From a virus: a stretch of 42,794 bases of DNA. The notes beneath the pieces were generated by a model that saw nothing but the letters and a program-made list of their open reading frames with translations, had not been told where the DNA came from and ran no database searches. Location: positions 1 through 42,794 of the IMG/VR virus record IMGVR_UViG_3300021197_001511. One strand, 5' to 3'. Positions 1-41,821 of the stretch are shown here, one piece after another; the stretch's first letter is position 1; the number at the start of each line of letters is the position of its first letter. A program made the translations under genes and the position numbers.

Positions 1-730
1 TTTTGCGTCCTGTAACGCCAGCGTCACCATCAGGACCACCAATGACAAAATTGCCAGTTGGATTAAGATGGAATATAGTCTTGTCATCTATTAAATCTCC
101 TAGTACTTCTTCGCATGCTGATCTTGTGGCCATACGTGCAGGTTCATAAAAGCTCTCATCTTTGTGTTGTTGACTTACCACAACTTGATCAATACGTTTT
201 ACCTTGCCGCCGTCATACTCCACACTAACTTGACTCTTAGCATCAGGACCAAGATATTTGTATCCATCTACACGTTTTTCTTTTATATTTTTTAATATCT
301 CATGTGAATAGTAAATTGGAGCGGGCAGATACGCATCATTGTCATTACATGCGTAACCAAACATAATACCTTGATCACCTGCACCAAAATCATCTGTGCC
401 CAGTGCAATGTCGGCACTTTGTGAGTGCAATTGATTGTTGATTGTTTTGTTATCAACTGTCAGTTTATCCCAGTGAAAGCCTTCTTGCTCGTAGCCAATC
501 TCTTTGACTTTATCTCTTATAATTTGTTCAACTTGTTCATCAGTTATATTAAAGTTTTTCACTTCGCCTGCTAGTACAACGTAGTTTGTTGTTACCATTG
601 TTTCAACTGCTACTCTGGTTGATTCGTCACCGGCTTTAAGTCCAGCATCAACTAAAGCATCTGAAATTTGGTCTGCTATTTTGTCAGGATGGCCTTCGCT
701 CACTGACTCTGATGTAAAAATATAACTCAT
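1..730 (-). CDS. metK: S-adenosylmethionine synthetase (partial, 3' end outside window)
   Basis: This is the N-terminal 243 residues of a methionine adenosyltransferase, which makes SAM from ATP and methionine in the cytoplasm. Visible family motifs are FTSESVSEGHPDKIADQ near the start (the ATP-binding His and Asp lie in EGHPDK), GAGDQGIMFGYA near residue 120, and GGPDGDAGVTGRK at the window edge. MetK is normally about 385-400 aa, so roughly the last 140 residues lie to the left of the window. The ATG at 728-730 gives the canonical MetK N-terminus. A GAGGGA sequence lies rather far upstream, so the ribosome site is weak. It is the last visible gene of a long minus-strand operon rich in radical SAM enzymes, which suggests that it feeds them SAM. 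The family call is secure; the role in the operon is inferred. Confidence 0.96.
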   Translation of the reverse strand, partial: MSYIFTSESVSEGHPDKIADQISDALVDAGLKAGDESTRVAVETMVTTNYVVLAGEVKNFNITDEQVEQIIRDKVKEIGYEQEGFHWDKLTVDNKTINNQLHSQSADIALGTDDFGAGDQGIMFGYACNDNDAYLPAPIYYSHEILKNIKEKRVDGYKYLGPDAKSQVSVEYDGGKVKRIDQVVVSQQHKDESFYEPARMATRSACEEVLGDLIDDKTIFHLNPTGNFVIGGPDGDAGVTGRK

Positions 731-814: not shown

Positions 815-1501
815 TTAATCCATGTTATCATTATACACGCCTTTTGTTTGTTTGTCAAGTAGTTCTGGATCAAATAACGGAACTGCACAAAAAGTTAAAG
901 TACCTTTGTTTATCTTTGATACCGAACGCTTATAAGCAATTACAGTTTCTAAGTTATAGTAATTATACTCAGGATCAATGGGGGTTGTCCATTTTAAACT
1001 GCTTCCAATCTGTGTTCCGTGTTGAACATCATAGTTTGGTTCAACAGTACCTGCAAATTCATTGAAGTCAGTGTTCCAGTCTAGTAGATACGGAAGTATA
1101 AGCAGTCGCCAGCCTTTTGCCATTTTAGCACGCCAAGGATAGTTAAGAATTTTAAATCTATATTCATATAAACTGTAATCATCATCTGCCCAAGGTTTAT
1201 CTCCTTTGTTACCAAATAGTGTACCGTCAACCATTGGTGCTGATACTCTGCCTCTTGCAAAATATGTGTCGTATCCATCTAAGTCTTCTGGTAATGGAAT
1301 AGTATAACCAATACTTGCAAGTCCTCTAAAACCTAAACAATTTCTTATTGTTTGTTGTTCAGCAAATGTAACTTCATCTCTTTTTCCTTTAAGTTTCTTA
1401 AACCATTCAGGCATGTGGTTACGCATAGGTGTAGGTGCTGGACATTCAAGGTACTGTATTTCTGGATCATCACAGTATTCCCACTCAAGAAAATTATTCA
1501 T
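815..1501 (-). CDS. Uncharacterised phage protein, 228 aa
   Basis: I do not recognise a function. The protein is soluble, rich in aromatic residues, and has no signal peptide or membrane segment. The N-terminal third has MPEWFKKLKG, then TIRNCLGF and GYTIPLPEDL. From memory, this pattern recalls an uncharacterised family in T4-like marine phages, but I could not check that. Two cysteines lie in the first 20 residues (YCDD and ECPAP), with further ones in RNCLGF and FCAVP. The ATG at 1501 overlaps the stop of the upstream 350-aa gene by 4 bases, so the two are probably translationally coupled. It lies directly before metK and after the radical SAM genes, so it may be a partner or substrate of those enzymes; that is speculation. 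Confidence 0.7.
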   Translation of the reverse strand: MNNFLEWEYCDDPEIQYLECPAPTPMRNHMPEWFKKLKGKRDEVTFAEQQTIRNCLGFRGLASIGYTIPLPEDLDGYDTYFARGRVSAPMVDGTLFGNKGDKPWADDDYSLYEYRFKILNYPWRAKMAKGWRLLILPYLLDWNTDFNEFAGTVEPNYDVQHGTQIGSSLKWTTPIDPEYNYYNLETVIAYKRSVSKINKGTLTFCAVPLFDPELLDKQTKGVYNDNMD

Positions 1502-2550
1502 ATCAAAGGTACCTGTAGTTGTTTACTATCTGCCCAAGTGTATTCATATTCAGCATATGAATCACTGGTTTTAATACTATATACATCAAGATGTTTAGTT
1601 AATATACTTAAAACTCCTTGAAAATCTTTACAAGCAAAACTTTTCTCTAGATCAACCTGTCCAATTTTTGGGTGTCCTATTGTTAAACTTGGATCTTCAG
1701 GATCAAAATTGTTAGCAACTAGCCATTTCCTAAACTGGTTTAGTTTAGTTTGCATAAAAGGCCTGTCACGTGTTGCTTGTCCCCATTCTATATCAAAGTC
1801 ACCAGCAGCCTCTGTTTGTGGCTTAAGTGTTGTGGTTGTAAGTTCATCAAGGCGACTGTCTGCACCTTCATCCTGAAATACTTCATAATGATGCTTTCCA
1901 ACTGCTTTGTTTACACCTACATACACACCTCCGTGATCACGTGCTATAGAATCAATTCCAAACAAGTTATAGTCTTCATCATCTAATATGAATCTTGGTG
2001 CATGTAACCAACACATTACATTGCTAGGACGCACCCATTCTGGAGCACTGGTTACTTTACCTAAGCTCATAATTAAACATTCTGCCTCATGACATAGTAA
2101 ATTCAGTTGTCTTATGTGCCACCGTGTTTCTGCATCTGCATTTGTGTAATGTTTGCTCATTGCACCACTTACTCCTTGTGTTTCTTCGAAGTATAAATGC
2201 AACTGGTTAAGTTTGTCATGATTGAGGCCAATAATTTCGCAATTTCCTAATTTGCTCCAACGCTTAGTTGTCATGTTTGCAACAGTGAAATGGTCTTTAA
2301 TAAAATAGTCTATGCTACTACCGTTTATAGCCGCAATGGTTTGATTTATTTGCGTTACAATCACATCAAGATCACGTTCACAATTTGGAAAGCCCATAAA
2401 ACAGTAATTTTTTTCTAGATGTAGTTTATTATCTAAAACATCATTGAATGCATTTAACCATTTTTTACTTAGACTGTTATCATAAACATCAAAATATATG
2501 TGTAATAAACCATCGTTTCCACGCAGTTTCATTTCTATTCTATCCAGCAT
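1498..2550 (-). CDS. Uncharacterised phage protein, 350 aa
   Basis: No family is recognised. It is a soluble, mixed alpha/beta-looking protein with no signal peptide or membrane segment. It contains scattered cysteines and histidines, for example NYCFMGFPNCERD near residue 48 and a His/Cys pair in LLCHEAECLIM near residue 150, but no clear catalytic signature. The frame extends to a TTG at 2553. The ATG at 2550 was chosen, and it overlaps the end of radical SAM gene E by 11 bases. A second ATG at 2532 (MKLRGNDG) is also possible. The 3' end overlaps the following 228-aa gene by 4 bases. Its position between a radical SAM enzyme and metK suggests a role in the same pathway, as partner, scaffold or substrate. 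Confidence 0.68.
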   Translation of the reverse strand: MLDRIEMKLRGNDGLLHIYFDVYDNSLSKKWLNAFNDVLDNKLHLEKNYCFMGFPNCERDLDVIVTQINQTIAAINGSSIDYFIKDHFTVANMTTKRWSKLGNCEIIGLNHDKLNQLHLYFEETQGVSGAMSKHYTNADAETRWHIRQLNLLCHEAECLIMSLGKVTSAPEWVRPSNVMCWLHAPRFILDDEDYNLFGIDSIARDHGGVYVGVNKAVGKHHYEVFQDEGADSRLDELTTTTLKPQTEAAGDFDIEWGQATRDRPFMQTKLNQFRKWLVANNFDPEDPSLTIGHPKIGQVDLEKSFACKDFQGVLSILTKHLDVYSIKTSDSYAEYEYTWADSKQLQVPLI

Positions 2551-3868
2551 CAATTCTATCCCACCATTCTAATGTTTCTTCACATCCTTGCGGACCAGCA
2601 AATATATCTCTCATGCATAGTGCATTAGGACGTATATTTTCTAATGTAAGTATTCTGCGTTTACCTTTACGCATACCTCTCTGGTATTCTTCTTCGCTAT
2701 ACTGCTCTTGTAAGGTAGGTCGATTTTTAAGTTGTAGTAGTACATCACGCAGTGCGTTTCCAAGTATGAATTTATTTAATATGCTATCAATCTTGCGGTC
2801 AAGTAAATCACGTGGCAGTGCAAGTGGCGACATTATAACATCAGGCGTAAAAGTGAATATTACTTTTGCTAATATATCAACATTCAAATCATCAGCTAGT
2901 GCCTGCATATTACTTACGTCTTGCATACCTGGCAGTGTAAGAGTGTAGTCTAAACGCATCATACGTCTATTATGAGCTAATGGTAAAAGCACTTTAAAAT
3001 TATCAACAAATTCTTTATACTTCAATCCTGTACGTATGTATTCGCCGATTGCACCTGTACCATCTAAACTAGCACATATTTGCCAGTCACGTATATTTTT
3101 TAGTATATCATGGCCTAAGTGTATACCTTTGTATTTTATTCTACTCAAGTTTGTATTATACCTTGCATACAACTTTGGACCATCACCAAGTTCCACTATA
3201 CGTTTCATATACCGCCAATGTTGTTCGTACATGAGAGGCTCGCCACCTACCCAATAGATTTCTTCAATTCTATGTTCTTCAACTGCATCTGAAAACTCTT
3301 TTTCAATTTGTGTATCTTGAAATTTGCTTATTTCTTTACGAACCTCTGGACGCATCCAGTTATTTTTTGGGTTGTCTAAATTAACCATGTTGTGTTTACG
3401 TTGTTCTGTTTCCCACGAACTGCTCAGCATATCCCCACAGGTTCTACACTTAAAGTTGCATAAGTTTGAAAATCTGTAATCCCAGCTGATTGGCTTCATG
3501 CTGGTCCAGCCAGTATCATCTGTCGAGGTCCACAGTTCATCATAACGGTGTTGAAACAAGTGCCAAAAGTAAGTTCTATATACATCAGTGTTTAACAGTT
3601 TGTCTGTACAAACTTCGCACTCGCTAAGTGTCTCACCAGCCATCATTCTACGTCTAACACTACGCATGTGATCACTGTTCCAATGTTCTTCTAATGTATT
3701 TGGGTTGTACTTTCCTGTTCCTGATGCAGTATCAATGTACTGTTCAAAACTCTGTGCTGGTTCACGTGATGCACAACACATACGACGTTCTGTTTGTGGA
3801 CTAAGGTATGTGTGCGTCCAAGGAGCCATACATAAGGTTTCTGGCTTGTTGTCAGGTTTGTTTACCAT
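2540..3868 (-). CDS. Radical SAM enzyme E, N-terminal twitch/SPASM-like type
   Basis: 442 aa. The radical SAM CxxxCxxC motif is C137-C141-C144 (CNFKCRTC), preceded by RFSNL, and the SAM-binding GGEP is at 208-211. Upstream of the core, the first 90 residues carry CMAPW (C13), CC at 31-32, and a CxxC at 84-87. Their spacing resembles the auxiliary Fe-S region of SPASM/twitch domains, here placed before the core. This matches the N-terminal-twitch radical SAM family known from marine phages, whose function is not known. Such enzymes cleave SAM to a 5'-deoxyadenosyl radical, which then modifies a substrate, often a peptide. The gene starts within the end of the nucleosidase gene (7-base overlap), so coupling with MTAN is likely. 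It is the last of five paralogues here. Confidence 0.93.
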   Translation of the reverse strand: MVNKPDNKPETLCMAPWTHTYLSPQTERRMCCASREPAQSFEQYIDTASGTGKYNPNTLEEHWNSDHMRSVRRRMMAGETLSECEVCTDKLLNTDVYRTYFWHLFQHRYDELWTSTDDTGWTSMKPISWDYRFSNLCNFKCRTCGDMLSSSWETEQRKHNMVNLDNPKNNWMRPEVRKEISKFQDTQIEKEFSDAVEEHRIEEIYWVGGEPLMYEQHWRYMKRIVELGDGPKLYARYNTNLSRIKYKGIHLGHDILKNIRDWQICASLDGTGAIGEYIRTGLKYKEFVDNFKVLLPLAHNRRMMRLDYTLTLPGMQDVSNMQALADDLNVDILAKVIFTFTPDVIMSPLALPRDLLDRKIDSILNKFILGNALRDVLLQLKNRPTLQEQYSEEEYQRGMRKGKRRILTLENIRPNALCMRDIFAGPQGCEETLEWWDRIDAG

Positions 3869-4428
3869 ACAAATGAAAACTGTTCTTGTTCAGTAAGTAT
3901 TGTTTTTCTAAACAGTTCAGCACCCTTATGAACATTCTCACGCCATTGGTCTCCTTGATCTTCACCGTCTGCATCACTATCTGAAATATACTTGTAACAG
4001 TCAAAAGGAATACCAAACTTGGTTGCAACTTTTGCAAGTGCATATGCTTCCATTTCACAAATCTGATAGTTAATATGTGGTACACTAAAACTATCACCTG
4101 TGCCACAAACAAATAAACTGTCGTGCTTTGTTTGGCAAACAATCATCTGTTCTTCGTCTCCTGGTGAAACATACAGTGGCAAGCCAAGTGGAGTACAATC
4201 CATATCACGTTCAATAACTGCACTTACGCCTACCAGTTCGCCTTTAATTTCTTTACTACCGCCTGCTGAACCATAATTTATTATCTTGCTATATCTATCA
4301 TTATAACACAATTCTGCAGTAAGAGCAACACTAGCGTTTACTTTTCCTACACCTGTGACTAGTTTTTTATAACCAGCGGGTAATGATCCAGGTAATTCTT
4401 CTTCTAATGCTATAACAACTAATATCAT
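3862..4428 (-). CDS. mtnN: MTA/SAH/5'-deoxyadenosine nucleosidase (MTAN/Pfs family), short form
   Basis: 188 aa against about 230 for bacterial MTAN. Family hallmarks are ALEEEL at 7-12 (acid matching E. coli Glu12), GVGKVNAS at 26-33, NYGSAGG at 51-57, CEMEA at 124-128 (E125 and E127 matching the ribose-binding and catalytic acids), and ISDSD at 148-152 (D150 matching Asp197). The arginine before ISD in E. coli (Arg193) appears as Lys146. MTAN cleaves adenine from SAH, MTA and 5'-deoxyadenosine. The last is the by-product of radical SAM enzymes and inhibits several of them. The gene is embedded between radical SAM genes D and E, with ATGA-type overlaps on both sides, which supports that role. 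The shortened region between residues 80 and 112 makes activity likely but unproven. Confidence 0.85.
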   Translation of the reverse strand: MILVVIALEEELPGSLPAGYKKLVTGVGKVNASVALTAELCYNDRYSKIINYGSAGGSKEIKGELVGVSAVIERDMDCTPLGLPLYVSPGDEEQMIVCQTKHDSLFVCGTGDSFSVPHINYQICEMEAYALAKVATKFGIPFDCYKYISDSDADGEDQGDQWRENVHKGAELFRKTILTEQEQFSFVW

Positions 4429-5630
4429 GTGTTTGGTCCTTTGTATTCTATAGCTTCTGCTAATTCAGCATGATGTGTACATAAATCTTGTTTCCTACGC
4501 CAATCTACATCAGCAACTTTCATGCGTAAGATGTTTCCATCTAAACTTGCACCACCATTTATAAAGTCAATTATGTTGTTGAATTCTTTTCTGTGATATT
4601 CTGTTACTTTTGCATTTTTTAATTTTCCTATTGCAACTTTTTTTGCACGGTCTGGAAGTGTGCCCACACTATGATAGTATGCCTCATGCAACATGTTCCA
4701 GTATACAAAATCAAAATTGCGTTTATCAATCCAGTTTGCAAGTCCTTCTAAATACATTACATTAAAAACGTTTACTGTGGAGCAAACCTGTAACTGTATG
4801 TTTGTATTACGATCACGCATCGCCTCAAACCGATCCATGTTAGTGTTCACTTCGTTCCATACTGCGTTAGCACGTTGGTATTCAAAACGTTCACCAACAT
4901 CATCAATTGAAAATGCTATTTCAATTAATTTAAAGTGTTTCCATATCTCTTCAGCGTGTACTGGAAAATGTGTTCCATTAGTATTATAGTGTATTTCTAC
5001 ATTATGTGCAATACCTTTGTCAACCATTCTTTGTAACAGTTGAAAGTGTTCTTGTATCATAAACGGTTCACCACCAGTAAACTCTAAGTACCGGACTTGC
5101 TCCATCAGTTTATCGATCTCCGTCCAAAACTTTTGATTGCGTCTTGGCCATGCTCCATCTTTAAGCATCTGGTAATGAAAGCTGTCTTTGCCCTCAAACT
5201 TAACTTCTTCGGCTGCAAACGTACTTGAACTCCAACTACCGCATATACGGCATTTTAGGTTACAAATATTGCCCAGTTTGAAATCTATAAACACCAATGG
5301 TTTTGCATCAGCAGTCCATTCAGTGTCTGTAACAATATGTTCTAATCTATTTAAAGTGTGCATACGTTTTGATGTTCGTCCTGAACGTTCTTCATTCCAG
5401 CACTTACGACAAGTTTGTGGCTTCTTGCCATCTAAAAATTCTTGACGTAGTTTTTGCATGTATTCGCTAGTATGAACTTCGTTGAGATCTGTTGTTAATA
5501 GACTATATTTGTTTCCATCTGTATCTGTAATCTCATCCTCTGCTAAACAACAAGGCCTAGTAGTGCCAATAGGTGACGTTTCTAAACTTACCCAAGGCAA
5601 GACACAAAATGTTTTGTGTGGCAATTTCAC
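4425..5630 (-). CDS. Radical SAM enzyme D, N-terminal twitch/SPASM-like type
   Basis: 401 aa, the shortest of the five paralogues. The core cluster motif is C123-C127-C130 (CNLKCRIC) and GGEP is at 186-189. The N-terminal auxiliary region has FCVLPW (C9), CC at 27-28 and CRKC at 74-77. The start is GTG at 5628-5630, with an AGGAG ribosome site 7 bases upstream. This GTG overlaps the TGA stop of the preceding gene (GTGA), so the two are coupled. Its 3' end overlaps the nucleosidase gene by 4 bases (ATGA). No C-terminal SPASM cysteine cluster follows the core. Radical SAM chemistry is secure; the substrate is unknown. Confidence 0.93.
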   Translation of the reverse strand: MKLPHKTFCVLPWVSLETSPIGTTRPCCLAEDEITDTDGNKYSLLTTDLNEVHTSEYMQKLRQEFLDGKKPQTCRKCWNEERSGRTSKRMHTLNRLEHIVTDTEWTADAKPLVFIDFKLGNICNLKCRICGSWSSSTFAAEEVKFEGKDSFHYQMLKDGAWPRRNQKFWTEIDKLMEQVRYLEFTGGEPFMIQEHFQLLQRMVDKGIAHNVEIHYNTNGTHFPVHAEEIWKHFKLIEIAFSIDDVGERFEYQRANAVWNEVNTNMDRFEAMRDRNTNIQLQVCSTVNVFNVMYLEGLANWIDKRNFDFVYWNMLHEAYYHSVGTLPDRAKKVAIGKLKNAKVTEYHRKEFNNIIDFINGGASLDGNILRMKVADVDWRRKQDLCTHHAELAEAIEYKGPNT

Positions 5631-6910
5631 TTTAATGCTCCTAGTTCAGGTATTATATCTAGTACGTTTTCATTGCGTATACCGTCAAGTTGATTGGTCT
5701 TTTGCCAAAACTTTTCTAGCAAGTGTGTGTTGTCAGTTTTAAGATACTGTAATGCACTTTCAAAACCAACAGTTGCTCTATTCAAATGATCCAATGGACG
5801 TAACCATTCAAGATGTTTCTCATACACATCAACAATTTGATCTTTGTATGCTTGTGGTGCTATGTCAATTCTATAGTAGTCAGGATCTTGTAGTATGTTA
5901 ACATTCAAATCTTGTGCCTTTATAAGTCCTTTTTCTACCCAGTCTCTGTGAAACCCAGGTATGTGTAGTGCATTCATTATGCTAAGTGTAGGGCTAATGT
6001 AAAAGTCAACTCGTGGACATATCTCCATCATCTGTCGTCTGTTCTCTTCAACCACACTCCACTTTGTACCTTTACGTATGTATTCAGCACGTGGACCCAT
6101 TGCATCTAAACTAGCACCGACTGCAACACTTTCAAACTTTTTCCAGTAGTCAAACACTAATCTGTTTTTCAGTTTCACATGTGTAAAGTTTGTATTGTAA
6201 ATTAAACGCACATCAAATCTGCCTCTACGTTCTAGTTCTTCTAGTATAACATAGTGTTCATCCATCATGCAAGGTTCGCCGCCGGCAAAGTATATCTGCT
6301 CAACATGATCTAAATGTTCCATTAGTTGGTCCATCATGTCAGTTTCAAAACGTCCTGCATAGTTTAAAACACTGTTGTTCTTTGCCCATTCTGGACCTGC
6401 TAGTGCAGTTTGATCTTTGTACCAACTACTGGAAAATATATGTCCACAACTTCTGCAACTAAGATTACACAAGTTTGAGAAACGTATGTCCCAATAGGTC
6501 ATCGCAAAGTCTTTGTATTCGCCATCCTCTGCGGTGTCTTGTGTTCTATGTATATGGTGTCCATGATGCTTGTTTGCACTTTGTCTTCCTGAGAAGAATC
6601 CTGACTTCTCCTGTTCATAACAACGTCCACATGCTGAATTTTCTGTTTCAGTTAGCATGTCTTTACGCAGTTGCTTTTGTTCTGCACTATTCCATATTTC
6701 AGACATGGTATTTGTTTTACAGTTGCCTACCTGTCCTACGCCCATTTCAGCATGGCAACATGGATATGCTTCGCCTGTTGGATATGCGTGTAGATGTATC
6801 CATGGATACATACAAAATGTTTTGCTTTCGCTTAACAGGTTACGCTCTCGTTCTTCTAAGTCACTGAGTTTTATTTTTATTGGATCGCTACTGTTATAGT
6901 TGTAACTCAT
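5627..6910 (-). CDS. Radical SAM enzyme C, N-terminal twitch/SPASM-like type
   Basis: 427 aa. This member shows the permuted architecture most clearly. A SPASM-like stretch at residues 31-100 reads CMYPW (C33), PTGEAYPCC (C51, C52), SEIWNS, and CGRC at 94-97. The radical SAM core follows, with RFSNLCNLSCRSC (C148, C152, C155) and GGEP at 210-213. In classical SPASM enzymes the PW...CC...IW...CxxC block comes after the core. About 30 residues precede the block, more than in D and E. The ATG at 6910 overlaps the upstream radical SAM gene by 17 bases. There is no strong ribosome site, so coupling is likely. With D and E it forms one subgroup (CC pair and RFSNLCN). Confidence 0.93.
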   Translation of the reverse strand: MSYNYNSSDPIKIKLSDLEERERNLLSESKTFCMYPWIHLHAYPTGEAYPCCHAEMGVGQVGNCKTNTMSEIWNSAEQKQLRKDMLTETENSACGRCYEQEKSGFFSGRQSANKHHGHHIHRTQDTAEDGEYKDFAMTYWDIRFSNLCNLSCRSCGHIFSSSWYKDQTALAGPEWAKNNSVLNYAGRFETDMMDQLMEHLDHVEQIYFAGGEPCMMDEHYVILEELERRGRFDVRLIYNTNFTHVKLKNRLVFDYWKKFESVAVGASLDAMGPRAEYIRKGTKWSVVEENRRQMMEICPRVDFYISPTLSIMNALHIPGFHRDWVEKGLIKAQDLNVNILQDPDYYRIDIAPQAYKDQIVDVYEKHLEWLRPLDHLNRATVGFESALQYLKTDNTHLLEKFWQKTNQLDGIRNENVLDIIPELGALK

Positions 6911-8252
6911 TGAACCATTCTTTCATGCTTGGAAATGCTTTATTAAAATTTTTATTACGTCTAATATCATACTGTGTGTAAAATTTTACAAAGTCGTTGT
7001 GTAGTTTTGGTGTTTCAAATGCTTCACTGTGTGGCGTTTTAACAACATCTAAGTAATCTAACAAACGTTGTGTTTGATTAAGTTCATGTTCATGTAAAAA
7101 TTCATTGTCTACATTTTTATCAAACCATTTTTGCAATCTGTCTTTATGTGCAGAACGGATCTTATCAGGCAATGCCAATGCACTTTGAAAACTTGGAAAA
7201 CGCAAAATATTAAGTGTAAAACTAGGGTAATCTCTGCCATACATTTGTTTAAAGTGTAGTAGATATGTTAGGAACTCTGGTAGTGTTTCCAAACATAATG
7301 CATTTATGGTACACATATTATGCAAACCACGTAACTTTCCACTAGCGGCTAGCAGGTGCATATTTCGTGACCATGTAGGCCAATCCAATCCATCGCGTAT
7401 ATATTCAGATTGATGAACTAGACTTTCGTTTGATGTGTATATATCCAACGGAGCACTGTCAGCTCTGTCGAGTAGTTTTGTTATATCCTCAATACTGCAT
7501 TGTAGATTACTGTTAATAGCAATACGTGTTTTACTAGCACCTTTGTTCGCTTTGAACCAATCTAACAGTTTCCACAAGTGACCACTCATCATTGGTTCAC
7601 CGCCAGTAATGCGTAATTCGTCAAGTGTGTGGTGCAAGTCTGATTCCCACCATTTAAAAAATGCTTCGATATAAGGGTTTGTTTCGTTGAATCTATACAG
7701 TTGCGAGCTGTCATGTGGATGTGTAAAATGATTTCTTCCATCGCTGATCAAACCTTCATATGCACCATTTTTCTTAATGTCTTTTACCCATGTGGTTGAG
7801 AAAGCAGGATTGCAATAACTACATGCTAGTTGACAAGTTCTATCAAAAGCAATTTCGAGTGTCTTTAAGTTAACATCCGTTTGCCAATCTCTTTCATGTG
7901 CAACATGCAGGTCTTTGTCTTTGTAAATTACACTTTTATATACTCTGTCGCTGATGTTGTCTCGGCCTATGTCTTCAACTTTCCAACAGTATTCACAACC
8001 TTCTGGACGCTCGCCGCATTGCATTTGTCGTCGTTCTTCTTTTTTCTGTGGTGTATTGTGCAGTGCTTTTGGATTGGCAATCACATCTTCCACACTTACT
8101 TTATGAGGTAGAGGATGATGGCAACTGGTGGTCATGCCACTGCCTAACCATATAGTAGCATTGTACCATTTGGCTCCACACATACTTGAACTAAGTGGAT
8201 CAAGCACTCGTTGTTTATAATTTAGGTCAGTTTCATTTGGTTGTTTGGGCAT
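6894..8252 (-). CDS. Radical SAM enzyme B, divergent N-terminal-cysteine type
   Basis: 452 aa. The radical SAM motif is C140-C144-C147 (CQLACSYC) and ITGGEP ends at 220. The N-terminal auxiliary cysteines are C25 (MCGAKW), C44 (SCHHP) and CEYC at 86-89, followed by KVEDIG and SDR. It lacks the CC pair of enzymes C-E and shares PxALHNT, the HP after the second cysteine, and CxYCWxxED with enzyme A, so A and B form a second subgroup. An 18-base gap separates it from gene A. No Shine-Dalgarno sequence is seen there, only the palindrome GTATAATTATAC directly before the ATG, which is unusual in an operon where most genes overlap. The substrate is unknown. Confidence 0.92.
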   Translation of the reverse strand: MPKQPNETDLNYKQRVLDPLSSSMCGAKWYNATIWLGSGMTTSCHHPLPHKVSVEDVIANPKALHNTPQKKEERRQMQCGERPEGCEYCWKVEDIGRDNISDRVYKSVIYKDKDLHVAHERDWQTDVNLKTLEIAFDRTCQLACSYCNPAFSTTWVKDIKKNGAYEGLISDGRNHFTHPHDSSQLYRFNETNPYIEAFFKWWESDLHHTLDELRITGGEPMMSGHLWKLLDWFKANKGASKTRIAINSNLQCSIEDITKLLDRADSAPLDIYTSNESLVHQSEYIRDGLDWPTWSRNMHLLAASGKLRGLHNMCTINALCLETLPEFLTYLLHFKQMYGRDYPSFTLNILRFPSFQSALALPDKIRSAHKDRLQKWFDKNVDNEFLHEHELNQTQRLLDYLDVVKTPHSEAFETPKLHNDFVKFYTQYDIRRNKNFNKAFPSMKEWFNELQL

Positions 8253-8254
8253 AT

Positions 8255-8266
8255 GTATAATTATAC
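8255..8266. other. 12-bp perfect palindrome GTATAATTATAC before radical SAM gene B
   Basis: It fills most of the 18-base gap between radical SAM genes A and B and ends two bases before the ATG of B. It contains TATAAT on either strand, but no -35 match is seen 17 bases upstream on the minus strand. It could be an operator, an internal promoter giving a nearly leaderless transcript, or chance in AT-rich DNA. Confidence 0.3.
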
Positions 8267-8270
8267 AGAT

Positions 8271-9701
8271 CTAAATACTAGCACGATATTTGCACTCTTC
8301 CCACCATGTGCTCATTTTAGGAAATGTTTTTAAGAAGTCTGTGCCTCTACGTCTATCATGTTCGTTAAAGAACCTGTAGAAGTCTGCTTTGTTTTTATTG
8401 ATATATTCAGGATCTAGTTTTTGTCCATCACGCATCCATGCAATGTCTCTGTCTAGTCTTGCTACTTCATAATCTTTAAATCCTTTAAAACGTGTTTGTT
8501 CAGATTCTAAATTTTCTTGCATCCAGTCTTTTATCACTTCAAGTTCATGTACATAACTTTCTGGTAACAGTTGTAGACTCTGCCAAGTAGGTGTACGCAG
8601 TACAGGAGTATCAAACCAAACTCTTTGATAGGTGTTACTGTATATTTGTCTTAGTCCAAGGATAGCCACAAATAACTGTTGCAAACTGGTAATGCTTAGG
8701 TTATTCATTGTTATAATAAAAGTTATACTATTACGTTCCGGTATGTCGTTTAGAAACTGATTTACTCTGTCCCATAATAGGTTGAAGTTCAATCCGTGTC
8801 GCATGTATTCTGCTGGTTCAAACATACCGTCCAGGCTTACATACTGCATAAAGTGTTCAACACGATCAGGAACTTCACATAGCATAGTAACATAACCTTT
8901 GTAGCGTTGCCATAGTTTTTCTTCAACACTGAAGTTTGAAGTTGTGCTTAGGTGTAGTTTTGAACTTGGATTCATTAATACATAATCAAATACACGGTAT
9001 GTATTCTTATCCATCATTGGTTCACCACCAGTCATTCTAAAATGCTCAAGCTCAGGATACAGTGTAGGCCACCATTTCCAAAATGCTTCCACATAAGGAT
9101 TGTGTTCTCTTGCTGGTATAGGACGTCTTTTGCCTGTAAAGTGTGCTGGATCATTGTGCGGTGTTGACGTTGGCCATGCACCATGTTTTTCTGTTTCAGC
9201 CATCCACGTTGAACTATACTGCGGTGAACAGTAACTACAACTAAGGTTACATGCACTGTTGAAATCTACTTCAACATAACTAGGCGTAATATCTTGATCC
9301 CAAGGAGAATTTTTAATTGTTTCAAAGTCCTTAATTGCCCAAGGCTCGCCTGAACGAAAGTGTCTATCACTTAATTTGCCATTGTCTTCCATTGCCCAAC
9401 AATAACTACACTCAGGTGGTCGTGTGCCTTCTAACATCAATTTGCGTTGTTGCTTTTTGTGTTCTGTATTGTGTAATGCACTAGGATTGACTTTGATTAA
9501 TTCTGCATCTGCACTATGAAGTGGTGGATGATAACAACTGTTGTTCATACCAGTTGTCAAATGTAAACTAAGTTGCTTCCATTTAGCCAAACAGAAACTT
9601 GGGCTTACTGTGTCTAACTTCTGTTGGGCACGTTCTGCGTCAGATAAGAAGTCGCTTTTAAAGTTCTCATCAACGCCATCGCCTTTGTTTTGAGCTACCA
9701 A
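8271..9701 (-). CDS. Radical SAM enzyme A, divergent N-terminal-cysteine type
   Basis: 476 aa, the largest paralogue and the first of the five to be transcribed. The motif is C151-C155-C158 (CNLSCSYC) and MTGGEP ends at 228. Auxiliary N-terminal cysteines are C37 (FCLAKW), C56 (SCYHPP) and CSYC at 98-101, in a context nearly the same as in enzyme B, so the two are probably tandem duplicates. The only upstream start with a good ribosome site is TTG at 9699-9701, with AGGAG 9 bases before it. No ATG occurs before the first conserved cysteine. The start overlaps the end of the upstream glycosyltransferase-like gene by 7 bases. Function beyond radical SAM chemistry is unknown. Confidence 0.92.
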   Translation of the reverse strand: MVAQNKGDGVDENFKSDFLSDAERAQQKLDTVSPSFCLAKWKQLSLHLTTGMNNSCYHPPLHSADAELIKVNPSALHNTEHKKQQRKLMLEGTRPPECSYCWAMEDNGKLSDRHFRSGEPWAIKDFETIKNSPWDQDITPSYVEVDFNSACNLSCSYCSPQYSSTWMAETEKHGAWPTSTPHNDPAHFTGKRRPIPAREHNPYVEAFWKWWPTLYPELEHFRMTGGEPMMDKNTYRVFDYVLMNPSSKLHLSTTSNFSVEEKLWQRYKGYVTMLCEVPDRVEHFMQYVSLDGMFEPAEYMRHGLNFNLLWDRVNQFLNDIPERNSITFIITMNNLSITSLQQLFVAILGLRQIYSNTYQRVWFDTPVLRTPTWQSLQLLPESYVHELEVIKDWMQENLESEQTRFKGFKDYEVARLDRDIAWMRDGQKLDPEYINKNKADFYRFFNEHDRRRGTDFLKTFPKMSTWWEECKYRASI

Positions 9702-10618
9702 CCTTCTTGACTCCTAATCACATCAATTTCGCGAGTCATAATAGATTTATTGTGCCAGTTGCTACGATAATGATGTTTAAAAAATTTACTTTGTACAGGT
9801 GTAAGGATATTCATGGGTAAAGAAAGTTGTCTAGCAAGATCATCAGCTTTTATGCTTACTAATTCACCAGGTGCTAAGTGTTTTACATCTTCCCAGATAG
9901 CATCCAACTTTGCAAAGTCCTGTACGTCTTTATAGTTCCAATCCTTCTGCAACATTGTTTTATATGTTCCAAGTCTTGATCCTGCAATAGCCCATAGTCC
10001 GTGTTCTGTATCTGCACCTATATTGTGCCATATGGTTAAATGATCTAAGTTTCTATTATGTACACTTTCCTTAAACGCACTTGCACTGGGCTTGGTACCT
10101 TTATCAAGGCACATCTTTACGCCTTCTCTAAAGCCTGCACGGAAAGCATGTTTTGCACTTTCTCCAGGATAGGTAGTTGAATAGCAGTTGTACATTGGCC
10201 AGTATAGGTCATCAAAGCAAAACTCCACATCAGTTTCATCTGCACCTTCTGATGCTTCGTGTGTACGCATGTTTTGTACAAATGTTTTAGTCCATGAACT
10301 TATACCTCCGTTGCCATACATAAGTCCGTTTATATCGTTGCGGGCACGCCATCTGTACACTGCTTGTTCGTACTGATCTGTTTTGTATTCGATCGTTTCG
10401 TTGAAAAAACTTTCTTGTGGCAAGTTATCGCCATCAATTAGTATAAAACGTTCTGTATCGCTTGCGTCAGCAGCCGCTTTGTGTGCCGCATCTGATCCAT
10501 GTACTCCATCTACACGTTTAGCCCATGGCACCATGTTGCGTATCTTTACCCAGAATTCTTCTTTCTTGGGCTCGTCATAGCTCAAATATATGCAATCTAA
10601 ATCAGCAACATCAATCAT
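9695..10618 (-). CDS. Glycosyltransferase-like protein (GT-A fold), 307 aa
   Basis: The segment RFILIDGDNLP, with DGD at residues 62-64 after a hydrophobic strand, resembles the metal- and sugar-nucleotide-binding DxD of GT-A glycosyltransferases. YGNGGISSWTK near 101-111 resembles an acceptor-side loop seen in such enzymes. The frame opens at a TTG (10666), but the ATG at 10618 is preferred because it follows a GGAG and overlaps the stop of the secreted-protein gene by only 8 bases. The N-terminal strand is then short, so a longer form from the TTG cannot be excluded. No signal peptide is seen. It lies between the small secreted protein and the radical SAM genes. The donor and acceptor are unknown, and the fold call rests on motif reading only. 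Confidence 0.65.
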   Translation of the reverse strand: MIDVADLDCIYLSYDEPKKEEFWVKIRNMVPWAKRVDGVHGSDAAHKAAADASDTERFILIDGDNLPQESFFNETIEYKTDQYEQAVYRWRARNDINGLMYGNGGISSWTKTFVQNMRTHEASEGADETDVEFCFDDLYWPMYNCYSTTYPGESAKHAFRAGFREGVKMCLDKGTKPSASAFKESVHNRNLDHLTIWHNIGADTEHGLWAIAGSRLGTYKTMLQKDWNYKDVQDFAKLDAIWEDVKHLAPGELVSIKADDLARQLSLPMNILTPVQSKFFKHHYRSNWHNKSIMTREIDVIRSQEGW

Positions 10619-10991
10619 TCTTTCTATACTCTCCTGAGAATGGTGTAAAATCTGTACCACCAGCAATTACACATGCAACATTATATTCACCAACTTTTTG
10701 ATAACTGAAAATTGTAAATGTACTGGTTTTAGGATTCACATACATAAGCAAATCAACAGTGACCATATCTGGTTTCATCAATGGCTTGATTTTGAATACT
10801 CCACTTGCAAACTCTTGTTCGCCATGCTTGTTTACTATATCTGAAAGGTAGTCAATGCCTTGTTCACTGCATGGTACCTGCATGTTTAACAGTAGCTGTG
10901 TTCTGTCTGGCTTTGATTCTGGTTTTGGTATTTCTTGAGCGTGTGTGTTAAATGCGGTAAGCAGTAACACCAGTATAATTAGGTGTTTCAT
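10611..10991 (-). CDS. Small exported protein, 126 aa
   Basis: The N-terminus MKHLIILVLLLTAFNTHAQE is a textbook Sec signal peptide: a Lys, a hydrophobic run, then likely cleavage after THA at residue 18, so the mature part of about 108 aa should reach the periplasm. The mature region has two cysteines (VPCSEQ and VACVIAGG) that could form a disulfide. The frame can start at 11018, but the ATG at 10991 was chosen because it follows a GGAAA and gives an uninterrupted signal peptide. I recognise no domain. It is the only clearly exported product of the operon. It could act on the host envelope or be a substrate of the neighbouring enzymes; both are guesses. Confidence 0.78.
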   Translation of the reverse strand: MKHLIILVLLLTAFNTHAQEIPKPESKPDRTQLLLNMQVPCSEQGIDYLSDIVNKHGEQEFASGVFKIKPLMKPDMVTVDLLMYVNPKTSTFTIFSYQKVGEYNVACVIAGGTDFTPFSGEYRKND

Positions 10992-11007
10992 TGTTTTTCC
11001 AATCTGT

Positions 11008-11355
11008 TTAATCAGCATAATAGGTTTTAACTTTCCATTTTACTGAACTATTTGTATCGACAATCATGACATTGTCAACTGCACAAGCAACTCCTTCATT
11101 TCCAGGAACTAACTTTCGCCATCGAACTGCCTCTACAATGCTTGTTAACTTACCATTTAGTACAATACTATCGTAACGACTTTCAGCATACTGTTGTTTG
11201 GTAATCTCAATATAATCACCGTCTAGATCCTCAGTTGAATATTGTAAGGCCTTACCTGTTTGTTTATTATAGTATAATTTATATTTTTTGTCAACCTGTT
11301 TTACTGGTTTTACATGCTCTTCAAAGATTTTGAAAAAGTCTACTGTCTCAGTCAT
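11008..11355 (-). CDS. Uncharacterised phage protein, 115 aa
   Basis: A small soluble protein. The middle reads YKLYYNKQTGKAL, then DGDYIEITKQQYAES and a C-terminal half with RKLVPG and GVACAVDNVMIV. From memory this arrangement recurs in small conserved proteins of T4-like marine phages, but I cannot give a function. The ATG at 11355 overlaps the upstream glycosyltransferase stop by 8 bases. Its own stop lies inside the alternative start region of the secreted-protein gene. No signal peptide or membrane segment is visible. Confidence 0.68.
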   Translation of the reverse strand: MTETVDFFKIFEEHVKPVKQVDKKYKLYYNKQTGKALQYSTEDLDGDYIEITKQQYAESRYDSIVLNGKLTSIVEAVRWRKLVPGNEGVACAVDNVMIVDTNSSVKWKVKTYYAD

Positions 11356-12112
11356 AGCAATTCCCTAGTTCTGTTGCAAGATATTTTTGATGATAATGCA
11401 CAAACCCATATTGATTATGCCCATTTATACGTATCACACCATTGACAATTTCCCAGATCAGTTCCTTGTTCCAATCTTCTGCAGTAGTTCCAAGTATTGC
11501 TGATTTCATATGGACAATCTGTGGGCCATAACCAGGTGTACAATAATTATCTTCGCATAAAGCATAGATTAGATCAGTGTTAGCTGCCTCATCGTGTCCA
11601 CCTTGTATTGTATCTTTTGCACTGTCCCAGTTTTCAAACGTTTTTTGTACTTCAGTAAAAAACTGTTTTGCTTCAATACTCATACGCCAATACGTAATAG
11701 CATTATAAACATCTGTTAATTTATTTTTATCAAATATCTTTCTGTACTTTCTTACTTTGCTAGGAATATTATGAAAGTCTCTACAACCAGTCGAGATCCA
11801 AACTGGCTTTGTTCTATACAAGTTCCACCAATGATCCACCGGACCGCTTACAATCATATCTGCTTCTAACTTTACAGTTTCGTGAAACGGACTAGCATGA
11901 AAAACTTGCCAATCAGTTGTCCATCCACCTGTATTACCATAAGGAAACTGTTTGACATAATCAAATAATGGATTGTTGTATTCAACATCAGTGAGTAAAC
12001 ATATTTTTACATCTGGATGCCAATAACGCAGACTTTTTGCTAGTGTTTCAGCACATGCAATATAATCTTTACTACCAACTATTAAGTACCCTCTACCTGC
12101 TTCATACGGCAT
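11348..12112 (-). CDS. Glycosyltransferase, GT8-like, 254 aa
   Basis: The N-terminus GRGYLIVGSKDYIACAETLAKSL followed by DVKICLLTD matches the opening of GT8-type transferases (first strand, helix, then a donor-binding TD). KLEADMIVSG at 82-90 supplies an ExD version of the DxD metal motif, where Glu replaces the usual first Asp. The C-terminal IVHMKSAILG and the GHNQYGFVHYHQ stretch offer possible metal-binding histidines. The frame opens at 12163, but the ATG at 12112 is chosen because a GGAG lies 8 bases upstream. It overlaps the preceding glycosyltransferase gene by 11 bases. Two GT8-like genes in tandem suggest stepwise sugar addition. The acceptor is unknown. Confidence 0.72.
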   Translation of the reverse strand: MPYEAGRGYLIVGSKDYIACAETLAKSLRYWHPDVKICLLTDVEYNNPLFDYVKQFPYGNTGGWTTDWQVFHASPFHETVKLEADMIVSGPVDHWWNLYRTKPVWISTGCRDFHNIPSKVRKYRKIFDKNKLTDVYNAITYWRMSIEAKQFFTEVQKTFENWDSAKDTIQGGHDEAANTDLIYALCEDNYCTPGYGPQIVHMKSAILGTTAEDWNKELIWEIVNGVIRINGHNQYGFVHYHQKYLATELGNCYD

Positions 12113-12848
12113 AGAGCTTCTCCAGATATTCTTTGCCCATAATATGCAGGTCGTTGTGTTCAATACATAAACGTCTGGTAGTGTGTTCTAACCACCATTT
12201 TCCGTCATATGCAACTTTGATTTTTGGATCAACATTAAATAATGGCCAAGGTATATCACATTGTTCAGTGCCTGTACCATTGCATATGAGTAATGCAATA
12301 CTCAAAGCAAAATCGTTACGAAACTGTCTTACGTCAAATTCAAATATATTTGCATAATGGTAGTAATTTTGCTCAACCATTTTCCAACAGTCAAATACAT
12401 CATTGCTAAATGTACTTTTGTCAAAAACAACAACAGTAGCCCACCACATGTGAGTATTTTTCATACCAAATTTTTCAATATGTTTATTCTTAAACACAGG
12501 TTGAACAGTTTTATGTGCAAAAAAAGACTGGGTAGAGTTAATACAAGTTAATAAATTACTACTATTCAACATATAATCGGTATCTAGTATTATAGTTCTT
12601 TGATATGGTGTATAATCAAATGCATGACTACGTCTGCCATTATACCATATTCGTGATTGGTGACGATTTTTATTAGTTGGTTTCTCAACAATTACTTGTT
12701 GGTCGTATAAATCTGTGTCTAGTTTAATATCAGTTACAAGGCTAACTGGAATATTGAGATACCTTTTAATTCTTTTTGCACATTCATTTGCGAGTAATGT
12801 ATATTTTACTTCGCTATCAAATGCAAATAGTAAAGCACCAGTGGTCAT
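12102..12848 (-). CDS. Glycosyltransferase, GT8-like, 248 aa
   Basis: The GT-A features are LLFAFDSEVKYTLLANECAKRI at the N-terminus, PVSLVTD near residue 40, and RTIILDTDYML with DTD at 89-91, the expected DxD. Residues 110-150 (FFAHKTV through WWATVVVFDKS) fit the GT8 middle region. HNDLHIMG near the C-terminus matches the HxxG-type metal-binding end common in GT8. The gene starts with an ATG inside the stop of the 105-aa gene (ATGA) and overlaps the next glycosyltransferase by 11 bases. It shares an operon with the radical SAM genes. Whether it decorates the phage, the host envelope or a modified peptide cannot be told from sequence. Confidence 0.75.
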   Translation of the reverse strand: MTTGALLFAFDSEVKYTLLANECAKRIKRYLNIPVSLVTDIKLDTDLYDQQVIVEKPTNKNRHQSRIWYNGRRSHAFDYTPYQRTIILDTDYMLNSSNLLTCINSTQSFFAHKTVQPVFKNKHIEKFGMKNTHMWWATVVVFDKSTFSNDVFDCWKMVEQNYYHYANIFEFDVRQFRNDFALSIALLICNGTGTEQCDIPWPLFNVDPKIKVAYDGKWWLEHTTRRLCIEHNDLHIMGKEYLEKLYAV

Positions 12849-13162
12849 CTGTTTTTAGACACTGCTTCGTATTCATCTAGCCAAGCGTTCATTTGTTCTT
12901 GCCATAGTTGCATTGCATGATTATACAAAAGTTCTGTGTCTACTTTCACGGGCGTATCATAGATATCTTGTAATACTGCTTCACCGTCACATAGTTTACA
13001 TATGTTTAATATATCTGGGCCAGCACGCCACATACCACCGTTAAAAGCAAAAATCATTTTTGCTTGATAGGTTTCTTTCAACACAAGCCTTGCCTGTTTA
13101 TGGTCAAATCTTGTACGGATTCTTTGTCTCAAGGATTCTGTGTTCATATTGTACTTAGTCAT
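12845..13162 (-). CDS. Uncharacterised phage protein, 105 aa, first gene of the left operon
   Basis: A small, largely helical-looking protein with MIFAFNGGMWRAGPDIL at 36-52 and a charged, Trp-containing C-terminus. Similar small proteins with an FNGG(M/L)W core are familiar from T4-like marine phages, but I know no function. The ATG at 13162 comes immediately after the T-tract of a terminator-like hairpin. The only Shine-Dalgarno candidate (AGGG, 7 bases upstream) lies inside the right arm of that hairpin. A second ATG at 13147 has no ribosome site. Expression may therefore depend on hairpin opening or read-through. Confidence 0.7.
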   Translation of the reverse strand: MTKYNMNTESLRQRIRTRFDHKQARLVLKETYQAKMIFAFNGGMWRAGPDILNICKLCDGEAVLQDIYDTPVKVDTELLYNHAMQLWQEQMNAWLDEYEAVSKNR

Positions 13163-13194
13163 AAAAAAACCCTAGTTAATAAAAACCAGGGTTT
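13163..13194 (-). terminator. Intrinsic terminator after the virion gene block
   Basis: On the minus strand AAACCCT (13194-13188) pairs with AGGGTTT (13173-13167) across a 14-base AT-rich loop and is followed by a run of seven T in total (13169-13163). It lies 19 bases past the stop of the last tail gene and directly before the first gene of the glycosyltransferase/radical SAM operon, so it would separate the two transcription units. The AGGG in the stem may also be the ribosome site of the next gene. Confidence 0.75.
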
Positions 13195-13212: not shown

Positions 13213-14166
13213 TTATGACTGTGACCAACTTGGTGTGTTTTGTGTAATTGTTCCCCAAGTGTCTGAAATATTTGATGTGCTTGGTGGACGTACAGTAGTA
13301 ATTTGTGATAATGTTCCGTCAACGTTGTCTGGTGATGCTGGATCTGGCGGAGTATAGTCATCTGATAAGTCTGTGTAAATTGTTAACACTGCACCTGACA
13401 CGCTATATGAAACTTCAATTTCGTTAGCACCATATGTGCCTGATGGTACCTGTTTAAAGTTTAAACTTGGTGTTGCATTCAGTGCATAGTAACCTTCGGT
13501 TGTTGTGAGCGTAGTTGGTGTGCCTGACCCACCAATCTTTGTTAATCCTGTGTACGCAACACTGTTTATGGTTTTACTTGCGGCTGCACCTGTAAGTACC
13601 AATGTACCAGCGGCAGTTAACAAGTCAGACCATGTGGTATTCTGTGTACTTGTAGTACCACCTGTTCTACTCCATGACAAACGTATTTGTCCTCCTGCAT
13701 TAAAAAAGTATCTAGCGGCGTTAGCACTGGCAAAAGTAATTGTTTTTGATACTGTTGAACTAGTGTTCCAACCTGATGTTGAACTTGTTGTTACAGATGC
13801 GTCACTTCCTTCTGCGGCTGCATTGTTTCTGTTTGTGTTAACTGCGGTAATGTTTGCACTTAATGCCGCATAAGCCGCAATAGTGTCACCTGCTGATGGT
13901 GCTGAAATTCCTGTAATTGTTGTTCCTTGATGTGATGCTAATGAAGCATTTCTAGCAACTAGGTTTGCCCAACTTGTAGCTGTAACTGTTGCTCCAGCGG
14001 CTACTGCTGGTAATGTAGATGTTTGCCCGTAGCCTTTATCGCCTGTGCCCGAACCCCATATTGAGTTTATATTGTTTACGGAGTTGTCGCCAGAGCCGGC
14101 TGCGTTACCTGTAGCGAAAATATTGTAGTCATCGTCTACAATGGTGTTGCCTGCTGAATATGTCAT
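13213..14166 (-). CDS. Putative tail fibre or virion surface protein, 317 aa
   Basis: The protein is extremely rich in Ala, Ser, Thr, Gly and Asn and nearly free of Cys, typical of beta-structured phage fibres. The N-terminus MTYSAGNTIVDDDYNIFATG is followed by a helical Ala-rich middle (SWANLVARNASLASHQ, AAYAALSANI), a beta-rich region with ARYFFNAGGQIRLSW, and a C-terminus ending in TVRPP...WGTITQNTPSW. The ARYFFNAGGQIR segment recurs, from memory, in structural proteins of marine phages. A purine-rich AAGGAAAAG precedes the ATG. It is the last gene of the late block, followed by a terminator and preceded by its own late promoter candidate and a leader of about 120 bases. Receptor binding is possible but not shown. 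Confidence 0.62.
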   Translation of the reverse strand: MTYSAGNTIVDDDYNIFATGNAAGSGDNSVNNINSIWGSGTGDKGYGQTSTLPAVAAGATVTATSWANLVARNASLASHQGTTITGISAPSAGDTIAAYAALSANITAVNTNRNNAAAEGSDASVTTSSTSGWNTSSTVSKTITFASANAARYFFNAGGQIRLSWSRTGGTTSTQNTTWSDLLTAAGTLVLTGAAASKTINSVAYTGLTKIGGSGTPTTLTTTEGYYALNATPSLNFKQVPSGTYGANEIEVSYSVSGAVLTIYTDLSDDYTPPDPASPDNVDGTLSQITTVRPPSTSNISDTWGTITQNTPSWSQS

Positions 14167-15680: not shown

Positions 15681-15690
15681 TGTATTTATG
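15681..15690 (-). promoter_or_regulatory. Candidate T4-type late promoter CATAAATACA (450-aa fibre gene)
   Basis: One of three identical 10-base copies found on the minus strand before virion genes in this window. It overlaps the last codons of the 219-aa gene and is followed after a suitable distance by CGGAG and the ATG at 15657. Confidence 0.65.
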
Positions 15691-41762: not shown

Positions 41763-41791
41763 TTGACTTTTGATAAGTAATGTTGTATAAT
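41763..41791 (+). promoter_or_regulatory. Sigma-70 promoter for gene 55
   Basis: TTGACT at 41763-41768 and TATAAT at 41786-41791 are separated by 17 bases, a near-consensus host promoter. Transcription would begin near 41798 and run into the strong AAGGAG at 41810-41815, 6 bases before the ATG of gene 55. This fits early or middle expression by host RNA polymerase. Confidence 0.85.
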
Positions 41792-41821
41792 ACACAATGT
41801 ATTAAGGCAAAGGAGAATCGT

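Follow-up and report, generated by a model that had tools for sequence, protein, structure and literature searches.

Why should a phage keep five related radical S-adenosylmethionine (SAM) enzymes in one operon beside its tail-fibre genes? The question is raised by IMG/VR record IMGVR_UViG_3300021197_001511, a stretch of 42,794 bases (hereafter the window) whose gene content marks it as part of the genome of a T4-like jumbo phage, a myovirus. The five enzymes, here called A to E, share their operon with glycosyltransferase-like genes next to genes for fibre-like proteins (Table 1; other genes are named by their first coordinate there). This shared operon was absent from the first-pass annotation of the DNA and is the strongest new clue to function. 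The reading favoured here, at a probability of roughly 45%, is that the phage encodes a radical-tailoring and glycosylation operon acting on its own fibre proteins. A virion target is thus preferred to a host surface glycan, the main rival.

All five enzymes pass the 170-bit cut-off of NCBIfam NF033640 (N_Twi_rSAM), a curated family of twitch domain-containing radical SAM proteins whose model carries no function. Their scores of 281-401 bits (E-values 1.9e-83 to 6.1e-120) lie far above chance and bear out an earlier assignment to a known, functionally uncharacterised N-terminal-twitch family; no paper was found that assigns a reaction to any N_Twi_rSAM enzyme. With that family they share the N-terminal twitch, CxxxCxxC and GGEP, and in the window five ancient members stand in one ordered operon with putative glycosyltransferases. 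Canonical SPASM/twitch enzymes carry the auxiliary-cluster domain after the core, whereas every one of the five enzymes here has its cysteine block ahead of the core, within residues 9-101. This block, with four cysteines per enzyme, precedes CxxxCxxC and GGEP. Its position is as first described. The twitch cysteines are C37/C56/C98/C101 in A, C25/C44/C86/C89 in B, C33/C51-52/C94/C97 in C, C9/C27-28/C74/C77 in D and C13/C31-32/C84/C87 in E. The core motif consists of C151/C155/C158 in A (GGEP at 225) and begins at residues 140, 148, 123 and 137 in B, C, D and E, respectively, each time followed by GGEP. Within the orthologue groups, of 84-106 sequences each, conservation of these four N-terminal and three core cysteines is 97-100%, and enzyme A has a C-terminal C470 that is 94% conserved. 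The twitch cysteines are predicted to bind a second [4Fe-4S] cluster. Among the motifs listed in the first-pass annotation, CC in C, D and E was correct, as were SC(H/Y)HP and CxYCWxxED in A and B; RFSNLCN is present in C and E, while D reads LGNICN.

The N-terminal domain can be linked to an enzyme of known function. BtrN (PDB 4M7S/4M7T) is the butirosin 2-deoxy-scyllo-inosamine dehydrogenase, an aminocyclitol dehydrogenase. When a profile of C and its relatives was compared with the PDB, the N-terminus of C aligned to the C-terminal twitch of BtrN (4m7t, E-value 5.9e-6) across all four cysteines, which are spaced 18, 45 and 3 in BtrN and 18-19, 42-43 and 3 in C. The twitch follows the core in BtrN and precedes it in C, and because the two domains are homologous the domain order is swapped, with the twitch moved ahead of the core. 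The likeness is one of the twitch only, as the BtrN core scores at most 3.4 bits against the profile of C. Enzymes C and E also pass the Pfam SPASM cut-off. AlphaFold2 folds are confident for C (predicted local distance difference test, pLDDT, 94.5; predicted template modelling score, pTM, 0.91) and for A (pLDDT 91.8, pTM 0.90). A Foldseek search matched the core only (anSME, SkfB, Tes, BlsE, viperin and NifB); since such fold searches are order-dependent, the moved twitch does not appear in it.

How old is this set of paralogues? A tree of 230 sequences contains five nearly pure orthologue clades, one per enzyme. A and B are sisters (FastTree local support 0.98), and C, D and E form a group (0.84) in which the C clade is weak (0.52). 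The two subgroups proposed earlier are thus recovered. Five unrelated acquisitions are rejected, since all five enzymes fall within NF033640. The accompanying idea of local duplication did not survive as a recent event. The duplications are ancient, since identity between paralogues is only 23-33% and the phage group as a whole has a separate orthologue clade for each enzyme. Orthologues in most relatives are about 60 to more than 90% identical, and ratios of nonsynonymous to synonymous substitution (dN/dS) of 0.02-0.13 against close relatives indicate strong purifying selection on all five. By this sequence comparison the duplication is old and every enzyme has been retained. Nor do five copies abut, as had been stated. 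Because the putative nucleosidase gene (3862-4428) separates D from E, the arrangement is four plus one.

The operon is as constant as its enzymes. The loci compared are a non-independent sample gathered by similarity searches, many of them on fragmentary contigs, and each scan covered the best 80 loci only. Of 99 related loci that span the 9695 gene to the 1498 gene, 94 show the order A-B-C-D-E. This sample was fetched with radical SAM queries, and linkage was re-seeded from the two end genes, neither of which encodes a radical SAM enzyme. Among 53 loci seeded with the 9695 gene, the fibre-like gene is present in 52, both other glycosyltransferase-like genes in 53 and downstream radical SAM genes in 52. 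Upstream of the 1498 gene, B, C and E are found in 73/73 loci, D in 72 and A in 68. Distant members of the 9695 family carry other radical SAM sets, such as A-C-C-C; only part of the group therefore has exactly these five genes. Three loci from marine bins (L165, L167 and L168) have the same cassette in the order A-B-C-E-D. Overlaps between neighbours are the rule along the gene run from 12845 to 1498 (median gaps -4 to -20, with +14 between A and B), which is apparently translationally coupled. In simple home-made scans, a terminator separates the fibre-like gene from the operon in 74 of 115 loci, compared with at most 18 of 94 at other common junctions of the operon and fibre block.

The fixed order, overlapping genes, five orthologue lines and low dN/dS together point to selection on the five-gene set. 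Such faithful conservation makes it probable that the operon produces a single, defined chemical decoration, whose likeliest site is either the phage's own fibres or the host surface. A multi-step or multi-substrate modification, as suggested before, is plausible. One further observation concerns the operon's recent history. Synonymous divergence between window positions 2540-12848 and the closest relative (L006) is 0.13-0.2 in genes 11008-12848, jumps to 1.0-1.6 in the 9695 gene, A and B, and falls back to about 0.3 in D and E, a pattern indicative of mosaic recombination within the operon.

Three partner genes encode putative glycosyltransferases. The 11348 gene has a weak profile match to glycogenin (GT8, E-value 5e-4) over its N-terminal third, and the 12102 gene is related to it by profile cross-hits and alignment. 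The 9695 gene has an invariant D78/D80/N81 (DGDN motif) and no PDB relative by sequence, so its assignment stays at motif level. No Pfam or PHROGs family was found for the small open reading frames of the operon, including the 12845 gene, and no Pfam or PDB relative for the 1498 gene. Inserts in the operon comprise, by Pfam, a carbamoyltransferase, an NAD epimerase, a DegT aminotransferase, a cytidylyltransferase, a B12-type radical SAM enzyme and a DUF59 Fe-S assembly protein and, by motif, amidinotransferase-like and GT-B-like families. The nucleosidase has motifs of the catalytic type (EEE at 9-11, MEA from 126, SD at 149-150) and scores 83 bits with the NCBIfam nucleosidase model, short of the cut-off, as is every NCBIfam equivalog score. 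The metK gene, clipped by the window edge, reaches 242 bits against the TIGR01034 cut-off of 309 and has Pfam S-AdoMet_synt domains.

The fibre-like protein encoded at 13213-14166 behaves differently from the enzymes. It evolves fast (dN/dS 0.12-0.38): compared with three relatives (L010, L018 and L022), it is 48-56% identical, while A-C are 81-90% identical. It has no relative in Pfam, and a search of 50,697 phage records gave no match for its gene or for the small gene beside it, so that an occurrence of the two in cyanophages was not confirmed.

How might these parts work together? On the favoured reading, each enzyme would bind a SAM-cleaving [4Fe-4S] cluster at CxxxCxxC, and its N-terminal twitch would hold a second, fully cysteine-ligated [4Fe-4S] cluster. 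On a sugar or side chain, the 5'-deoxyadenosyl radical would drive one step per enzyme, be it oxidation, epimerisation, deoxygenation or cross-linking. Glycosyltransferases would build or attach the glycan, and accessory epimerases, aminotransferases, carbamoyl- and amidinotransferases would vary its outer part. The likeliest targets would be phage fibre proteins, above all the 13213-14166 product. In the window phage, MetK may supply SAM and the nucleosidase may clear 5'-deoxyadenosine, which inhibits radical SAM enzymes (PMC8102628).

The phage's own fibres are favoured because a gene with 30% Ser+Thr is tied to the operon, which has no multi-pass membrane protein. Supporting this are the operon itself, its linkage, its fixed order and the selection on it, along with the fast-evolving fibre-like protein. 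The sugar-tailoring inserts, the BtrN twitch homology, a cluster in Vibrio phage K566 (below), and the presence of SAM synthetase and nucleosidase genes in this gene run count in the same direction. A home-made scan detected no membrane segment in enzymes A-E, which fits cytosolic modification. We consider a bolder version unlikely, namely that the fixed five radical SAM enzymes and three glycosyltransferases make a constant radical-derived sugar or side-chain modification on Ser/Thr-rich fibres. This would amount to a new class of modification of phage proteins, put together separately by two or more jumbo phage groups.

Several points weigh against fibre modification. Its substrate, its chemistry and the modification of the virion are ones that we infer. 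The glycosyltransferase calls for the 9695 and 12102 genes were made from motifs, and the 11348 product alone has a weak fold match. MetK and the nucleosidase are confined to a subgroup (19 loci and 31 of about 160, respectively) and hence accessory. Other N-twitch copies lie at unrelated sites in these genomes, for instance between gp46- and gp47-like recombination genes, and cellular N-twitch members have no common glycan neighbourhood in a Pfam scan of 102 neighbours. The missing membrane segments are also compatible with host-surface targets, because glycosyltransferases of the GT8 family that act on the lipopolysaccharide (LPS) core are soluble too.

The main rival, which we judge possible but somewhat unlikely, is that the operon modifies host surface polysaccharide (LPS core or O-chain). 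Glycosyltransferases would add sugars and radical SAM enzymes would tailor them, altering receptors and blocking superinfection. The nearest arrangement on record was read in this way by its authors: the host recognition cluster of pelagimyophages, whose structural region combines GT8-type glycosyltransferases, radical SAM cassettes and tail fibres (Zaragoza-Solas et al. 2020, PMC7029224). Such clusters are partial prior art for the present operon. The window likewise has fibre PHROGs, a gp55-type sigma factor, a (weakly) glycogenin-like glycosyltransferase and radical SAM genes. They are described, however, as a hypervariable, non-syntenic island between VrlC and gp14, whereas here the core order is fixed and variable genes occur only as inserts. 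The accessible portions of that paper name neither the N-twitch family nor an ordered paralogue set. The variable sugar-modifying inserts do resemble O-antigen cassettes, and GT8 is a common LPS family. Nevertheless, the operon has no flippase, polymerase or membrane-anchored transferase, its radical SAM core is unusually constant for a host-specific polysaccharide when set beside the fibre-like protein, and it is tied to the fibre-like gene in 52 of the 53 seeded loci.

An improbable alternative is that the product is a small molecule or modified peptide, such as a metabolite resembling aminoglycosides or ribosomally synthesised and post-translationally modified peptides (RiPPs), with activity against the host or competing phages. 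Maturation of peptides or aminocyclitols is a frequent role of twitch and SPASM enzymes; anSME, SkfB and BlsE are among the core neighbours in the fold search, and the carbamoyl- and amidinotransferase inserts recall aminoglycoside pathways. However, the small open reading frames include no recognisable RiPP precursor or recognition-element (PqqD-like) gene by Pfam and PHROGs, searches that can miss a novel precursor; no export gene was seen in the operon, and a candidate target, the fibre-like gene, lies next door.

DNA hypermodification or nucleotide chemistry against host defences is very improbable. Radical SAM steps occur in some thymidine hypermodification pathways, and viperin makes a modified cytidine triphosphate. 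The cores here distantly resemble viperin and QueE, thymidylate synthase and dihydrofolate reductase genes lie near the operon in a few relatives, and one other N-twitch copy sits between gp46- and gp47-like genes. Yet viperin scores do not exceed 38 bits (cut-off 180), QueE is likewise far under family level, and the operon is in the structural region, coupled to fibre and glycosyltransferase-like genes. Selfish or incidental spread of N-twitch genes as free-standing cassettes with no joint pathway, which the 7-17 copies per contig (many isolated) and the tandem arrays in Bacteriovoracaceae, Oligoflexia and Elusimicrobia genomes might suggest, is the least credible explanation, being largely refuted for the five-gene operon by the evidence of selection given above, and may hold for some isolated copies.

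The pairing of N-twitch enzymes with glycosyltransferases recurs elsewhere. Vibrio phages K566/K567 (OZ196521, OZ196593) carry five N-twitch-type radical SAM genes within 18 kb. In K566, two Pfam GT8 genes and a third gene weakly resembling GT4 are interspersed among four of the five, and the cluster sits behind a G/S/T/Y-rich protein. Identity to the window is 23-25%, the genes lie on both strands, and none of the window's other operon families is present. On these sequence grounds the K566 cluster is a separately assembled version, and the pairing therefore recurs.

Other described phages match in part. In the T4-like marine virus TARA_ERS488813_N000010, 12 radical SAM genes occur together with an A-type Fe-S carrier and were read as Fe-S auxiliary metabolism (Nishimura et al. 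2017, PMC5332604); the operon, the twitch position and the glycosyltransferase link are not described there. The likeness is one of gene content: the 20 longest related contigs hold 7-17 N-twitch enzymes each, many of them isolated, and in whole-contig searches 11 of the 20 had A-type Fe-S carriers and 3 had a nucleosidase of the phosphorylase superfamily. Fe-S assembly is also represented by a DUF59/MIP18-type gene (PF01883) that recurs near metK or radical SAM genes (L155, 12482-12817, and ten relatives), in line with paaD noted by Nishimura et al. 2017. A jumbo-phage survey (PMC7824862) does not mention radical SAM enzymes, and within the partial literature covered no prior description of the ordered five-enzyme operon or its N-twitch nature was found.

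The window is assigned to a T4-like myovirus because PHROGs identify baseplate wedge, hub and lysozyme, and gp55-type late sigma factor genes. The wedge and the 15686 gene are nearest to jumbo phages such as Atu_ph07, Phosso, SCTP-2, CBB and RaK2 (32-58% identity). Related contigs reach 344 kb, and the carriers are many aquatic jumbo phages, a large uncultured group. Atu_ph07 and Phosso have a homologous giant protein, wedge and fibre-like gene, with a radical SAM-containing block at the same place; these radical SAM genes match the window family weakly (at most 29 bits) and the glycosyltransferase-like genes are absent. This different block behind the fibre gene spans L162 14871-27396 and L163 20909-27070, and that of Atu_ph07 includes a cupin/JmjC-like protein. 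The main text of the Atu_ph07 paper does not state the virion status of the fibre homologue. The T4-type late promoter motif TATAAATA occurs 0 times in the whole window against 4.7 expected, despite the gp55-type late sigma gene at 41780-42712. It was dropped as a timing marker, and nothing is therefore concluded about expression timing.

N-twitch genes outside the operon occur in varied settings. In three genomes one lies between gp46-like (SMC_N/AAA_23) and gp47-like (metallophosphatase) genes, beside gp55 (L243 4373-9640, L249 4301-10072, L250 4458-9873); the window stops 82 bases past gp55, just before this site. Isolated phage copies gave no guide to function, as their contexts are mixed: the gp46/gp47 site, sugar or c0-type glycosyltransferase-like genes in some, and S-adenosylhomocysteine hydrolase once. 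Cellular neighbours were equally uninformative, with no recurrent partner among the 102 scanned beside chromosomal members (the best, glycosyltransferase family 2, in 4). Tandem arrays in bacterial bins include an Elusimicrobia metagenome-assembled genome (CAIRTQ01; L174, L178, L182, L183), Bacteriovoracaceae (L172) and Oligoflexia (L170); the longest uninterrupted row has seven genes (L174), and a single 21-kb locus contains eight (L172). A second type of radical SAM enzyme, likewise bearing a cysteine block at its N-terminus, was seen in L143 17695-18831, L157 18502-19755, L020 6036-7148 and relatives; several members have GGEP altered to GDGE or GDGD.

Table 1. Features of the operon and the adjoining fibre block, in window coordinates.
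Feature	Coordinates	Strand	Details or basis
S-adenosylmethionine synthetase (metK), clipped by window edge, accessory	2..730	-	TIGR01034, Pfam S-AdoMet_synt
phrog_7084 protein, function not assigned, accessory	815..1501	-	PHROGs
Conserved protein, function not assigned, last core gene of operon	1498..2553	-	Linkage
Radical SAM enzyme E	2540..3868	-	442 amino acids (aa); NF033640 282 bits
Putative 5'-methylthioadenosine/S-adenosylhomocysteine-type (MTA/SAH) nucleosidase, between D and E	3862..4428	-	PF01048 47.8 bits; motifs
Radical SAM enzyme D	4425..5630	-	401 aa, GTG start; NF033640 338 bits
Radical SAM enzyme C	5627..6910	-	427 aa; NF033640 401 bits; BtrN twitch homology
Radical SAM enzyme B	6894..8252	-	452 aa; subgroup with A (tree); NF033640 281 bits
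Radical SAM enzyme A	8271..9701	-	476 aa, TTG start; NF033640 300 bits
Putative glycosyltransferase, GT-A-like DGDN motif, directly upstream of enzyme A	9695..10666	-	Motif level
Small protein, N-terminal hydrophobic stretch like a signal peptide; some relatives only	10611..11018	-	
Small conserved operon protein, function not assigned	11008..11355	-	
Putative GT8-type glycosyltransferase	11348..12163	-	Profile match to glycogenin
Putative glycosyltransferase akin to 11348 gene, DTDY motif	12102..12848	-	Alignment, profile cross-hits
Small first gene of the apparently coupled operon, function not assigned	12845..13162	-	
Intrinsic-terminator-like hairpin and T-tract, between fibre-like gene and operon	13167..13194	-	
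Ser/Thr-rich (30%) fibre-like protein, candidate substrate	13213..14166	-	
Tail-fibre-like protein, common to Agrobacterium phage Atu_ph07 and Sinorhizobium phage Phosso	14305..15657	-	PHROGs tail-fibre hits
Conserved virion-region protein (phrog_11259)	15686..16345	-	PHROGs
Giant structural protein, 4522 aa; Atu_ph07 and Phosso homologues annotated virion structural protein	16377..29945	-	

In summary, N_Twi_rSAM, a family without a known reaction, is represented here by five defined, ancient enzymes with fixed partners, which allows a concrete hypothesis that names candidate substrates. This hypothesis is testable, because an analogous cluster is carried by a phage in culture, Vibrio phage K566. 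If it is true, phages run multi-step radical chemistry, usual in antibiotic and cofactor biosynthesis, to decorate their virions or hosts. The presence of Fe-S carrier and SAM-metabolism genes in such phages, until now filed as general auxiliary metabolism, would also gain a possible explanation.

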